A stretch of DNA of 38,051 nucleotides from a virus, in IMG/VR virus record IMGVR_UViG_3300044621_001939, positions 1-38,051 of that record; one strand, 5' to 3'. The stretch's first letter is position 1. Every line of letters begins with the position of its first letter. The notes below the pieces were generated by a model. The model ran no database searches. It saw only the letters and a program-made list of their open reading frames with translations, and was not told the origin of the DNA. Below are positions 28,915 to 32,095 of the stretch, piece by piece. Position numbers and translations under genes: made by a program.

Positions 28915-29335
28915 AGTTTCGCTTTACTTCGTATCCGATGATTTCAAATTCATCTTCGCTGCGCTGAATCGTGATCGGTGCGATGTCATACTTTTCCTTG
29001 CTTGCGATTGTGAGATGTTCGCCGGTCACTTTCCAGCTTGATGTGTAGCTTTCGCCGTTCCAGCCGTGGAGAGCGAACACGTCGTTTTGAATTTTCACAA
29101 GATCAATTTTATTGTCATTCCACCAAGTGCCGATGATGGCGTTGTTTCGTTTCGAGTCGCTTTGCGTTGCATCGCTTTGCGTCGCTTCGCGTAGCATCTG
29201 AAGTGCTTCTTCAACCACACGGTTGCGGCTGATTCGGTTTCGCGTCGCGTAGTCCGCGAGCCAATCGAACGTCTCCGTTTCAAAGTCAATCGTTGTTCTT
29301 ATCCTAGATCTCGACAAAAAAATCATTCCCTTCAT
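28913..29335 (-). CDS. Ribbon-helix-helix protein with C-terminal domain
   Basis: About 140 residues from ATG 29335, or 137 from ATG 29326. Upstream in-frame residues are Pro/Arg-rich and would read through a terminator, so I exclude them. The N-terminal domain is a ribbon-helix-helix DNA binder: 'RIRTTIDFETETFDWLADYATRNRISRNRVVEEAL'. A short repeat (ATQSD twice) links to a beta-rich C-terminal domain. Tandem 10-bp repeats lie just upstream and may be its operator. It is transcribed toward the convergent ArpU-like gene. Confidence 0.7.
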   Translation of the reverse strand: MKGMIFLSRSRIRTTIDFETETFDWLADYATRNRISRNRVVEEALQMLREATQSDATQSDSKRNNAIIGTWWNDNKIDLVKIQNDVFALHGWNGESYTSSWKVTGEHLTIASKEKYDIAPITIQRSEDEFEIIGYEVKRN

Positions 29336-29344
29336 TTGGTTTGG

Positions 29345-29374
29345 TTTCGCGTCGTTTCGCGTCGTTTCGCGTCG
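29345..29374. repeat. Tandem 10-bp repeats before the RHH gene
   Basis: Three perfect copies of TTTCGCGTCG at 29345-29374. Three more copies occur at 28155-28164, 28435-28444 and 29238-29247. One-turn spacing fits an RHH operator. Confidence 0.75.
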
Positions 29375-29421
29375 CTTTGGATTCGCTTCGCGTCGCGTTG
29401 TTTTGGGCAGGGGCTCGCTCG

Positions 29422-29474
29422 GATGGGCGGAAAAAAGCCCCCGGAGATGGGCGGAAAAAAGCCCCCAGAGGGGC
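29422..29474 (-). terminator. Tandem terminators ending the anti-defence operon
   Basis: Two exact 21-bp units (29422-29442, 29446-29466). On the - strand the first reads GCCCC-TCTG-GGGGC followed by TTTTTT, and the second has a GCCC / GGGC stem followed by TTTTTT. They stop the operon that ends at 29487. Confidence 0.8.
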
Positions 29475-29486
29475 CCCGGGGGTGTG

Positions 29487-29876
29487 CTAAGCCTCGACGA
29501 TGTCCAGCCTGTACCCGTCATGCTCTAGGCGGTCCGTGATCTCATCCAGCTTTGCAGCGGTCCAGTCGCGCAAATTGTCGGAAACGTACTGTTCGAAGTC
29601 ATCCGGGCCGTATCCCTCAGCTGCGGAATTGTCAAACCAAGCAGCGCGGCCGATATAGATATGATCGCCAGTGACAAAGTCGGAACCGGTCCCGGCAACT
29701 TCCCGGGTCCAGAACTCGACAACTTCAGCAACGGGCTCGCTTATCGGGTCCGTTACGGGTCTGATTGTTGCGTAAAGCTCGATAAATCCGCGGCCGTGAT
29801 CGCGCCCGGCAGCATCCTCGATCATTGCGCGGACCGCTGCGACAAGCGCGGACCGTTTGAAAATTAACTCGTACAT
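29487..29876 (-). CDS. Acidic small protein (129 residues) with a ribozyme in its 5' leader
   Basis: An acidic protein (many Asp and Glu) with alpha/beta character and no recognised domain. The C-terminal 30 residues are an amphipathic helix-turn. It has the repeated 16-nt leader just before ATG 29876, and hammerhead copy B lies in its 5' leader, directly downstream of an extended -10. Codon choice is GC-rich compared with the phage core. A DNA-mimic or anti-defence role is possible by context, but I have no direct evidence. Confidence 0.6.
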   Translation of the reverse strand: MYELIFKRSALVAAVRAMIEDAAGRDHGRGFIELYATIRPVTDPISEPVAEVVEFWTREVAGTGSDFVTGDHIYIGRAAWFDNSAAEGYGPDDFEQYVSDNLRDWTAAKLDEITDRLEHDGYRLDIVEA

Positions 29877-29892: not shown

Positions 29893-29901
29893 TTTTTGTC
29901 T

Positions 29902-29951
29902 GACCTCGTCAGCGCTTGCACTACAAGCGGACCGCTTGCGCGGTTTCGGTC
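29902..29951 (-). ncRNA. Type II hammerhead ribozyme, copy B
   Basis: On the - strand, in order: stem II 3' strand GACC; GAAA; stem III CCGC-GCAA-GCGG (GNRA tetraloop); UC (cleavage triplet GUC); stem I CGCTTG-loop-CAAGCG; CUGACGA core; stem II 5' strand GGTC. All pairs are Watson-Crick. Cleavage is predicted between 29930 and 29929. Confidence 0.9.
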
Positions 29952-29953
29952 TC

Positions 29954-29974
29954 GGGCCCGTGATTAGCGGGCCC
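29954..29974 (-). other. Hairpin on the 5' side of hammerhead B
   Basis: 7-bp stem GGGCCCG / CGGGCCC with loop CTAATCA. It shares a 19-nt core with the hairpin before copy A. It could stack on or compete with stem II. Confidence 0.8.
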
Positions 29975-29997: not shown

Positions 29998-30171
29998 TTA
30001 AAAAGTCTGAACGGGTGCGCGTGATGTGCTTATACTTTTTGTCTTTGTTCCTTCTGGATCAAACTTCCGGACAATGTGATTATGCAAGCGCGACAAATCC
30101 CACTTTGTGACCTTTTCAAACTCAGACGGGTAACGGTCCAGCCAATCAATACGGATTATATATTTATTCAC
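29998..30171 (-). CDS. Small basic protein, 57 residues
   Basis: GTG start at 30171 overlaps the previous TGA (GTGA), with GGAGG seven bases upstream. It is a basic protein with a Trp/Tyr-rich N-terminal half and a Lys/Ser/Arg-rich tail. The coupling and ribosome site make translation likely. No family recognised. Confidence 0.6.
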   Translation of the reverse strand: MNKYIIRIDWLDRYPSEFEKVTKWDLSRLHNHIVRKFDPEGTKTKSISTSRAPVQTF

Positions 30172-30424: not shown

Positions 30425-30453
30425 AGAGGGCAGCCGGTCCAGTGGTCTGCCCT
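30425..30453 (-). other. Hairpin between ArdA-like and 75-residue genes
   Basis: On the - strand GAGGGCAG and CTGCCCTC form an 8-bp stem with a CC/GG inner pair, followed by TTATATTAT. It is probably a weak terminator or a processed spacer. It lacks the hammerhead core. Confidence 0.6.
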
Positions 30454-30473
30454 CAGTTTTCGGGGCCGCGGAA

Positions 30474-30914
30474 TTAGTCTAAGATCTCCAAGACTTGACC
30501 GCGGTCCAAATCCTCGTAATAATTGCCCTCAAGGCGCATATCACGGCCTAACATGTCATAATCGATAGAAACGTACCACCAAAGGCTGCCCGCTTGCTCT
30601 TCAATGATTTCTCTAAGATCCTCGCCATAAACATCCGTCACATATTGCCGGGCGATGTCTGACATATTGCCGTTATAAATCCGGTAGCTGTAGCCCTCGA
30701 CGATCTCGACGGCCTCAGCGACTGAATAACCGGCAGCGTCGACGATAAAAAGCGCGGCCTCTACCTGATTCACTTCTAAAACTTCGATACGTGCGACAAG
30801 CTCGGAAAACTCTTCATTGCTTGCGGTATTCTCAAATCGGGCTAAGGCGTAACGTTGCAATGATAGATCAACCAATTTTTGACGATTTTCAACGGATAAC
30901 AATAACTCGTTCAT
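30474..30914 (-). CDS. ArdA-like anti-restriction protein
   Basis: A 146-residue acidic protein resembling the last two thirds of ArdA, a DNA mimic that blocks type I restriction enzymes. The family-like features are the helical middle, 'YNGNMSDIARQYVTDVYG' and a C-terminal 'SIDYDMLGRDMRLEGNYY', close in pattern to the IDY-x3-GRD-x2-L-x-G end of ArdA. It is shorter than the usual 165-170 residues and appears to lack the first domain. The repeated 16-nt leader precedes ATG 30914. It is the best functional anchor for the island. Confidence 0.7.
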   Translation of the reverse strand: MNELLLSVENRQKLVDLSLQRYALARFENTASNEEFSELVARIEVLEVNQVEAALFIVDAAGYSVAEAVEIVEGYSYRIYNGNMSDIARQYVTDVYGEDLREIIEEQAGSLWWYVSIDYDMLGRDMRLEGNYYEDLDRGQVLEILD

Positions 30915-30938: not shown

Positions 30939-31073
30939 TTAGGCGAACAACTGCACAGCGACGAAAACCCAAGCGACGGCAGCAACTGCGACGATAGCGA
31001 CGGCAACGGGCTCCATGTCGGAGACGTCACGGGCCCAGAGACGGGCCAAGCGCTTTGCTCTTGTGATTGTCAT
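30939..31073 (-). CDS. 44-residue single-pass membrane peptide
   Basis: ATG 31073 has GGGAGGAG upstream. The N-terminal 15 residues are Arg/Lys-rich, followed by a short acidic turn and a long Ala/Val/Trp hydrophobic helix reaching the C-terminus ('AVAIVAVAAVAWVFVAVQLFA'-type, about residues 22-43). This fits one membrane helix with the basic end inside the cell. It lies between hammerhead C and the ArdA-like gene. Possible roles include superinfection exclusion or toxin-like signalling, but I cannot assign one. Confidence 0.6.
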   Translation of the reverse strand: MTITRAKRLARLWARDVSDMEPVAVAIVAVAAVAWVFVAVQLFA

Positions 31074-31100: not shown

Positions 31101-31156
31101 GGCCTTCATCAGTGCGGGCCTTACCCGCAGACGGTCCGCGCTGGACCGTTTCGGCC
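31101..31156 (-). ncRNA. Type II hammerhead ribozyme, copy C
   Basis: On the - strand: stem II 3' strand GGCC; GAAA; stem III CGGTCC-AGCGC-GGACCG; UC (triplet GUC); stem I TGCGGG-TAAGG-CCCGCA; CUGAUGA core; then an extra A and stem II 5' strand GGCC. Cleavage is predicted between 31130 and 31129. The extra A may weaken activity. Confidence 0.8.
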
Positions 31157-31161
31157 TGATC

Positions 31162-31419
31162 TTATCGGCCGCCTCTCTTTATCTCTTTTAACTCGTCTTC
31201 CAGCTCGTACATCATACCCGCTAGATAATCACTTTCCGCGCTGCAGCTTGCTTTACAGCTGCAAACCTCGTCTAACATTTTATTGATTATATCAACTGAT
31301 AAATTGCTGTAAGCCTTGTAAAATTGAATCATTCCCTCAGCTGTTTTCACTCCGGACCAATAAGCTGCATCATTATGCTTGCGTTCTAGTACCTCAGTCA
31401 TTAGCTCTTGCGTCGTCAT
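31162..31419 (-). CDS. Small acidic protein, 85 residues
   Basis: ATG 31419 follows the repeated 16-nt leader and hammerhead A. Alpha-helical, with three Cys in the middle ('VCSCKASC') that could bind metal or form disulfides, and an acidic C-terminal helix. No family recognised. It is the first cistron released by copy A cleavage. Confidence 0.6.
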   Translation of the reverse strand: MTTQELMTEVLERKHNDAAYWSGVKTAEGMIQFYKAYSNLSVDIINKMLDEVCSCKASCSAESDYLAGMMYELEDELKEIKRGGR

Positions 31420-31435: not shown

Positions 31436-31444
31436 TAATGTTCT

Positions 31445-31502
31445 GACCTCGTCAGCGTGGACCTTATCCACGTACGGCCCAAGATCTGGGACCGTTTCGG
31501 CC
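31445..31502 (-). ncRNA. Type II hammerhead ribozyme, copy A
   Basis: On the - strand: stem II 3' strand GGCC; GAAA; stem III CGGTCC-CAGATCTT-GGGCCG (one G-U pair); UA (cleavage triplet GUA); stem I CGTGGA-TAAGG-TCCACG; CUGACGA core; stem II 5' strand GGTC (one G-U pair). Cleavage is predicted between 31473 and 31472. Confidence 0.9.
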
Positions 31503-31506
31503 TTTC

Positions 31507-31525
31507 GGCCCGTGATTAGCGGGCC
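31507..31525 (-). other. Hairpin on the 5' side of hammerhead A
   Basis: GGCCCGCTAATCACGGGCC, identical over 19 nt to the hairpin before copy B. It contains the stop codon of the upstream gene. A nearby GGCC-GAAA-GGCC could compete with stem II. Confidence 0.85.
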
Positions 31526-31770
31526 AAAAATTCAAACGTACATTCTTCTGATTCTCCCTCGACGCAATAAGCTATAAACTCATTTGCAGCGGTCTCGTCG
31601 TAAACTTCATGTTTCATTCTGATTAAATCCCATTGGCCGGCCTGATCTCTTGCAAAGTCATATACGATACGGCCGTTATACCAAGCATTGACAGCGACAG
31701 ACTCAGCAATCTTTTGCGTTAGCTCCTCCTGCGAAAACTCAACCTTTACACCTAAAATATCAACCTTCAT
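31516..31770 (-). CDS. Acidic small protein (84 residues), first gene of the island
   Basis: ATG 31770 follows a close variant of the repeated leader. It is an acidic alpha/beta protein without a recognised motif. The stop codon lies inside a hairpin shared with the copy B leader. It is driven by the promoter at 31809-31837. A DNA-mimic role is conceivable from charge and neighbours but is unproven. Confidence 0.65.
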   Translation of the reverse strand: MKVDILGVKVEFSQEELTQKIAESVAVNAWYNGRIVYDFARDQAGQWDLIRMKHEVYDETAANEFIAYCVEGESEECTFEFLAR

Positions 31771-31808: not shown

Positions 31809-31837
31809 ATTATACATATTTATTGCTAGCATAGCAA
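31809..31837 (-). promoter_or_regulatory. Promoter of the anti-defence island
   Basis: On the - strand TTGCTA (-35, 31837-31832), 17-bp spacer, TATAAT (-10, 31814-31809). It lies 39 bases upstream of the first gene of the operon. Confidence 0.75.
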
Positions 31838-31970: not shown

Positions 31971-32016
31971 TTCTACAATCAAAGGTAGGTTCGGGGAGGA
32001 TTATTCTTTTTCAAGT

Positions 32017-32070
32017 TCTCCAAGATCGCAAAGCTCTCCAAGATCGCAAAGCCTGCCAAGATCGCCAAGC
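32017..32070. repeat. Three 18-bp repeats before terS (pac site candidate or translated repeat)
   Basis: TCTCCAAGATCGCAAAGC occurs at 32017-32034 and 32035-32052, with a diverged copy at 32053-32070. They are in frame with terS and would encode LQDRKA-like repeats if translated. Their place just before terS also fits a small-terminase binding site. Confidence 0.7.
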
Positions 32071-32095
32071 TCATAAGATCGGAGATGATCGCCAA

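Follow-up and report, generated by a model that had tools for sequence, protein, structure and literature searches.

Between two small genes of a phage genome lies an RNA motif that resembles a hammerhead with a GUA cleavage triplet, which raises the question of whether it is a natural self-cleaving ribozyme and what its cleavage would do to the RNA of the surrounding genes. The window, meaning the whole stretch of DNA that was analysed, is the IMG/VR record IMGVR_UViG_3300044621_001939, 38,051 bases in length. Terminase, portal, structural and integrase genes are present in it, and the nearest named relatives of its terminase are found in Paenibacillus genomes (72% identity), suggesting a Paenibacillus-like host. 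Directly to the left of the terminase genes is a run of small ORFs on the minus strand, within which three hammerhead copies, designated A, B and C, were located. This cluster is probably an early operon that includes an ArdA-like gene. Its features, read along the minus strand, are the following:

31809..31837 (-), promoter-like site TTGCTA-17-TATAAT, where the gene cluster begins; a candidate from a consensus scan only
31516..31770 (-), ORF1, 84 aa, without a family match; its TAA stop codon (31518..31516) lies inside the hairpin preceding copy A
31507..31525 (-), upstream hairpin GGCCCG-CUAAUCA-CGGGCC, a predicted fold that extends to 11 pairs (31530..31502)
31445..31502 (-), type II hammerhead copy A, triplet GUA, predicted cleavage at 31473/31472; from the descriptor, Rfam and model R2
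31443..31455 (-), anti-core hairpin of copy A, CUGAC-GAG-GUCAG, which excludes the hammerhead core and stem II; from the fold and the association of C7 with an AG tail
31162..31419 (-), ORF2, 85 aa, starting 25 nt past copy A, with a Shine-Dalgarno-like sequence
31101..31156 (-), copy B, a type II hammerhead with a GUC triplet, predicted cleavage at 31130/31129; from Rfam and R2
30939..31073 (-), ORF3, 44 aa, starting 27 nt past copy B
30474..30914 (-), ORF4, 146 aa, ArdA-like anti-restriction protein; from Pfam PF07275 and identity to the ArdA of a relative, L004
30168..30395 (-), ORF5, 75 aa, no family match above its cut-off
29998..30171 (-), ORF6, 57 aa
29955..29972 (-), exact repeat of the hairpin GCCCGCTAATCACGGGCC, ahead of copy C; from a repeat search and the fold
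29902..29951 (-), copy C, a type II hammerhead with a GUC triplet, predicted cleavage at 29930/29929; from the descriptor and R2
29900..29912 (-), anti-core hairpin of copy C, CUGAC-GAG-GUCAG; a predicted fold
29487..29876 (-), ORF7, 129 aa, with a Shine-Dalgarno-like sequence right past copy C
29462..29482 (-), terminator-like hairpin and T run 3' of ORF7; a candidate

No relatives of ORF2 were found in IMG/VR or among deposited phages, nor any of ORF4 among deposited phages, and the early region gave no DNA match in deposited phages. Short repeats were also seen on either side of the cluster: gacgcgaaac-type repeats around the start of a ribbon-helix-helix gene (29300-29420), and ccaagatcgcaaagctct-type repeats just ahead of a small-terminase-like ORF (32010-32090).

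Copy A is read on the minus strand, from 31502 to 31445, as GGCC-GAAA-CGGUCC..GGGCCG-U-A / CGUGGA-UAAGG-UCCACG-CUGACGA-GGUC, with the slash at the predicted cleavage site. An earlier reading of the DNA (the sequence-only reading) gave no strand, and its 'copy A' is one of three copies, all of them on the minus strand. It had described a complete hammerhead core with closed stems I and III and a 4-bp stem II, and this was borne out. A descriptor scan for CUGANGA, GAAA, NUH and three helices returned stems II, III and I of 4, 6 and 7 pairs; stems I and III are closed by loops and stem II is open, and the type II core (CUGANGA ... GAAA with A-U at 15.1-16.1) was found as CUGACGA and GAAA by reading, by the descriptor and by the covariance model R2. 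The GUA triplet, at 31475..31473, fits NUH as had been stated, and cleavage placed from the sequence after this triplet falls at 31473/31472, in agreement with the position given before. The earlier count of two G-U pairs holds for stems II and III, with one in each, and a further U-G pair closes loop I if the seventh pair of stem I is counted. As a chance rate for the descriptor scan, hammerheads with stems of at least 3 bp occurred at 0.03 per dinucleotide-shuffled window, which puts the motif far above chance.

Model R2 was built from sequences of other phages only, with no window sequence included, and it scored copy A at 49.5 bits (E 1.7e-12), copy B at 58.6 bits and copy C at 59.7 bits, A being the lowest of the three. 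Its matches were these copies and the one of L004, at 49.5-60.8 bits, and the next best match among ten sources reached 14.3 bits. An earlier model, R1, in which the window's three copies had been included, was run on the window with filters off and gave nothing above 11.8 bits beyond those copies. Against Rfam Hammerhead_II (RF02276), copies A (22.6 bits) and B (36.3 bits) both fall below the gathering cut-off of 37, which sets them apart from that family, and for this reason stock annotation would miss copy A; the L004 hammerhead, a clear relative, is likewise missed by Rfam. Copy A was therefore classed by structure and not as an RF02276 record, and judged on its sequence and predicted structure it is a type II hammerhead.

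To place copy A among its relatives, IMG/VR was scanned with short core-plus-stem-II patterns, giving several hundred loci and about 600 related phage hammerheads overall; the first three pattern sets comprised 326 representatives after removal of near-duplicates. Among pattern matches chosen blind to stems I and III, an NUH triplet and both stems were found in 166 of 199 and 110 of 113, compared with 0 and 1 when the inside was shuffled. This blind-pattern test is the non-circular check of the helices; 97% of helix cells across the relatives are paired and covarying, in sequences preselected by a descriptor that demands pairing. The triplet is GUC in 307 of the 326 representatives, and GUA is a minority triplet at 4-9% of the collected type II hammerheads (13/326, 12/141 and 9/133), unremarkable among relatives. 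Loop I has five bases of the U-N-A-N-G type in 287 of the 326 (the first base being U in 286 of these 287), on a stem I of 6 bp, and a geometry this constant is hardly accidental and suggests a tertiary contact that has yet to be described. A Watson-Crick pseudoknot between loop I and the 3' tail, an optional and non-defining feature, would amount in copy A to at most three pairs of UAAGG with the tail by inspection. Such pseudoknots are given in the main text of PMC3088659 for about 40% of hammerheads, and the sampled five-base loop I (UNANG) differs from these in showing no excess Watson-Crick pairing to the tail.

The position of the hammerheads relative to genes was then counted in the 310 relatives with enough flanking sequence. 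A start codon with a Shine-Dalgarno-like sequence lies within 80 nt downstream in 70% of them, versus 17% at random positions, and in 45% the stop codon of an ORF is found 0-4 nt before stem II. Copies on the same strand have a median spacing of 467 nt, about one small gene. At one locus, L050 889-5156 (-), nine type II hammerheads were seen in about 4.3 kb, nearly one per gene, and none carries the RUCAG tail considered below. In the window, start codon and Shine-Dalgarno sequence were counted automatically for copies A and B; the same arrangement was found at copy C on reading the sequence, where AGAGAGGATGAAGAAGGATG ends at the ORF7 start and the automatic count had taken an out-of-frame ATG.

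The ribosome-binding site of a small ORF follows closely on each of the copies A, B and C, and this placement supports the reading that we consider probable from the sequence: that copy A is a naturally occurring ribozyme of the type II hammerhead kind which, with the two other copies, punctuates a minus-strand operon of small phage genes, and that cleavage would yield separate mRNAs. Cutting at 31473/31472, 31130/31129 and 29930/29929 would split the operon RNA into mRNAs of one or a few genes, namely an ORF1 piece, a 343-nt ORF2 mRNA, a 1200-nt ORF3-ORF6 piece with the ArdA-like gene, and an ORF7 mRNA. The type II cut would fall between two closed hairpins, and because stem II is the open helix in this geometry both new ends would carry one: each upstream piece would have at its 3' end the stem III hairpin and a 2',3'-cyclic phosphate, and each downstream piece would begin with a 5'-OH and the stem I hairpin, just ahead of the ribosome-binding site. 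These terminal hairpins would presumably protect the mRNA ends. As copies A and B lie on the same strand and flank exactly one ORF, it could also be proposed that the 343-nt ORF2 RNA is freed by them and then circularised or spliced, by hammerhead re-ligation or by an RtcB-type ligase. According to the main text of PMC3088659, however, circular and spliced products of such clusters were sought and none were found, and the anti-core hairpins of the window would disfavour re-ligation, so that we regard excision of this kind as very unlikely.

Copies A and C share a feature with each other that is not found at copy B. An exact 18-nt hairpin, GCCCGCTAATCACGGGCC, occurs at 31524..31507 and 29972..29955 (-), preceding A and C; at A it holds the ORF1 stop codon, and at C it comes after a promoter-like TATAAT. 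From the sequence, A and C look like a duplicated hairpin-plus-ribozyme cassette. Copy B has no anti-core tail and carries one additional A (31105) between CUGAUGA and stem II, which may be a tolerated core-junction variant; an additional base at this junction position was also observed in a few relatives, among them L089 11388-11448, L143 3698-3754 and L146 8140-8195. In a further case, an 8-bp hairpin, GAGGGCAG ... CTGCCCTC (30454..30427, minus strand), lies before the ribosome-binding site of ORF5, placed as the hammerheads of A, B and C are; it has no match in Rfam, and may be a different leader element.

The shared 18-nt hairpin would also suit the view that copy A is a relic of this cassette without useful activity, and its GUA triplet, the G-U pair in stem II, a competing fold of better energy and the weakest R2 score of the three could all be cited for decay. 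Every core base and all three helices are nevertheless intact in copy A, between A and C both outer stems, I and III, are wholly unlike in sequence and yet pair in each, and GUA recurs among the relatives at the frequency given above, making decay improbable in our judgement.

The competing fold itself bears on a proposal of the sequence-only reading, that folding may be switchable through a GGCC-GAAA-GGCC hairpin overlapping stem II. This hairpin is present at 31510..31499, but was rejected as the main switch since the predicted fold already engages its first GGCC in the stabler upstream hairpin 31525..31507. The partner is instead the 3' tail: in its context, copy A is predicted to lack stem II, with stems III and I kept beside the upstream hairpin and CUGAC-GAG-GUCAG formed. 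By nearest-neighbour energies, in which the tertiary contacts of the hammerhead are ignored, the inactive fold of copy A has -25.2 kcal/mol and the hammerhead -22.2 kcal/mol; by the same measure and with the same omission, the hammerhead fold of copy C is 1.6 kcal/mol less stable than the alternative and copy B prefers the hammerhead. Because the inactive fold has the better energy, copy A may be a slow cutter or inactive. The lowest-energy fold is without stem II in 105 of 136 relatives with the tail, versus 18 of 190 relatives without it. On these models the idea of a switchable fold appears reasonable, with the 3' tail in place of the 5' hairpin.

A stronger form of this idea is that A and C are kept inactive ahead of cleavage by the tail hairpin, alone or together with the upstream one, and that some event, for instance a ribosome passing the adjacent stop codon or a change in transcription speed, then frees the core, so that cleavage would be regulated and not constitutive. 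In energy the alternative folds differ by no more than 3 kcal/mol for A and 1.6 for C, the loss of stem II in tail-bearing relatives is in keeping with such a switch, and where a stop codon abuts stem II, as in 45% of relatives, a terminating ribosome would cover the 5' strand of that stem. However, neither a sensor nor a ligand domain was seen, the hairpins involved are short and of a generic kind, and tertiary contacts, which lie outside the energy model, favour the hammerhead; covariation, for its part, cannot separate a hairpin formed before cleavage from one formed after it. A bistable switch acting ahead of cleavage is in our view rather unlikely.

Covariation of the tail was followed across the relatives. 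In many copies of the GGCC stem-II class the sequence RUCAG stands directly 3' of stem II and complements the catalytic strand CUGAY, in which core position 7 is otherwise free. In a first set, C7 was found with GUCAG in 27 copies and U7 with AUCAG in 15, with no crossed combination (42 to 0). The relation between tail and position 7 was written down as a prediction beforehand for a second set, formed by two stem-II classes new to the analysis, which gave 39 C-G or U-A pairs, one A-U pair, one U-G wobble and one mismatch (40 matched, 1 and 1); with this mismatch the rule is not absolute. L084 and L238 are alike in stem III and most of the tail, yet one has C7 with GUCAG and the other U7 with AUCAG, a compensating change, and within the CATGGC stem-III family each of the two states occurs several times. 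Kinship in these counts was lowered by clustering, and not by a phylogenetic model. When position 7 was permuted across the set, 80 copies were matched on average and 99 at most, compared with 136 observed among 313.

Copies A and C both belong to the GGUC stem-II class, in which the pairing register is shifted and the GUC of stem II together with AG makes GUCAG. Their CUGAC-GAG-GUCAG could be taken as a mere stem II followed by a common AG; in this class, however, an AG tail accompanies C7 in 63 of 63 copies and U7 in 23 of 36 (p 4e-7), which favours pairing. In total the covarying anti-core tail is present in 42% of sampled copies, A and C included, and tails without RUCAG showed no residual complementarity to the core beyond that of swapped tails. 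On these sequences the anti-core 3' hairpin is well supported as a competitor of the hammerhead fold in A and C. Other causes of the tail were considered. A loop I/tail pseudoknot was rejected, since such pairing was no more frequent than with swapped tails, whether or not RUCAG was present, and a guard against cross-ligation among multi-copy loci was rejected as well: the tail is no commoner in such loci, which argues against a main role in stopping cross-ligation between copies. Since symmetric changes preserve a DNA palindrome too, covariation alone is also compatible with an operator, in which the CUGAY...RUCAG inverted repeat binds a dimeric repressor and its symmetry merely mimics RNA covariation. 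The spacing of the arms varies (3, 6, 7, 8 and more bases), however, and one arm is in every case the catalytic strand of the ribozyme, and of all the readings we give this one the least credence.

Returning to the cutting of operon RNA, the tail GUCAG in A and C would, after cleavage, pair with the freed CUGAC strand and disarm the ribozyme, which would favour irreversible cleavage and leave a two-hairpin 5' leader. We infer the transcription of the cluster, cleavage in the cell, the stability of the mRNAs and the order of cleaving first and refolding after from what was observed, namely the sequence, the structure model built on it, the gene context and the covariation across relatives. Counted against the operon-cutting reading are copy B, with its missing tail and additional base at the junction of core and stem II, and the 58% of relatives that do without an anti-core tail. 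It is possible, at somewhat less than an even chance, that A, C and many phage type II hammerheads are two-state elements, either active cutters or disarmed double hairpins heading the mRNA of a small gene. If this is true, the built-in covarying anti-core strand would add to gene-punctuating ribozymes a layer that regulates them or locks their products.

The ArdA-like gene, the second ORF past copy B, links the window to a relative. ORF4 scored 24.8 bits (E 3.7e-5) against Pfam PF07275 (ArdA), short of the gathering cut-off of 27 bits, and is named only ArdA-like for that reason; it is 33% identical to the ArdA of L004. The terminase of L004 is 79% identical to that of the window, and in the corresponding region L004 carries one hammerhead, with 26 nt between it and a clear ArdA gene downstream (PF07275 99.4 bits). 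A common function of the genes downstream of hammerheads was rejected, as these encode mostly small proteins without an assigned role, with ArdA in 2 of 103, L004 being one of them. The association of hammerhead and ArdA, as judged from sequence, is one that recurs as a minority. No hammerheads were found in terminase relatives of 64-72% identity (Paenibacillus prophages and virus contigs), and none was matched in 100 Paenibacillus genomes, in a search that had no positive control and therefore carries no weight.

Tandem type II hammerheads clustered around small or single prophage genes are known (Perreault et al. 2011, PMC3088659; Rfam RF02276), and by its sequence the copy A element belongs to this kind. 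It is like the hammerheads in the main text of PMC3088659 in its core, NUH triplet, open stem II and closed stems I and III, and in the multiple copies around small phage or prophage genes with an ardA neighbour; there, Agrobacterium and Legionella are given as cases of ardA adjoining hammerheads. That text describes tandem copies of this type as cutting native polycistronic RNAs of ~2 kb in vitro, with cleavage in E. coli shown as well at one locus. The same source describes a variant hammerhead of haloviruses HF1 and HF2, named HHphage, that lies 13 nt ahead of an early helicase gene, with a mapped transcript 5' end within three nucleotides of the cleavage site. HHphage likewise belongs to an early phage operon and comes shortly before a start codon, but has an atypical, high-salt-adapted core and is a single copy at its gene.

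What appears to be new is the covariation of the tail with core position 7 in phage hammerheads, A and C included. The passages considered here from the main text of PMC3088659 and from two hammerhead reviews describe loop I/tail pseudoknots or Watson-Crick tertiary contacts and not a tail complementing the catalytic strand, such as the covarying one of the copies sampled here, although priority for the anti-core tail is not certain. The role of bacterial and phage hammerheads is described as an open question in PMC6155905. The placement of stop codon, ribozyme and ribosome-binding site makes it testable whether phage operons are cut into single-gene mRNAs, and the covarying tail makes it testable whether cleavage or its reversal is governed by one base pair, between core position 7 and the tail. 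With an anti-restriction gene as neighbour, early host-takeover genes may be those that benefit.
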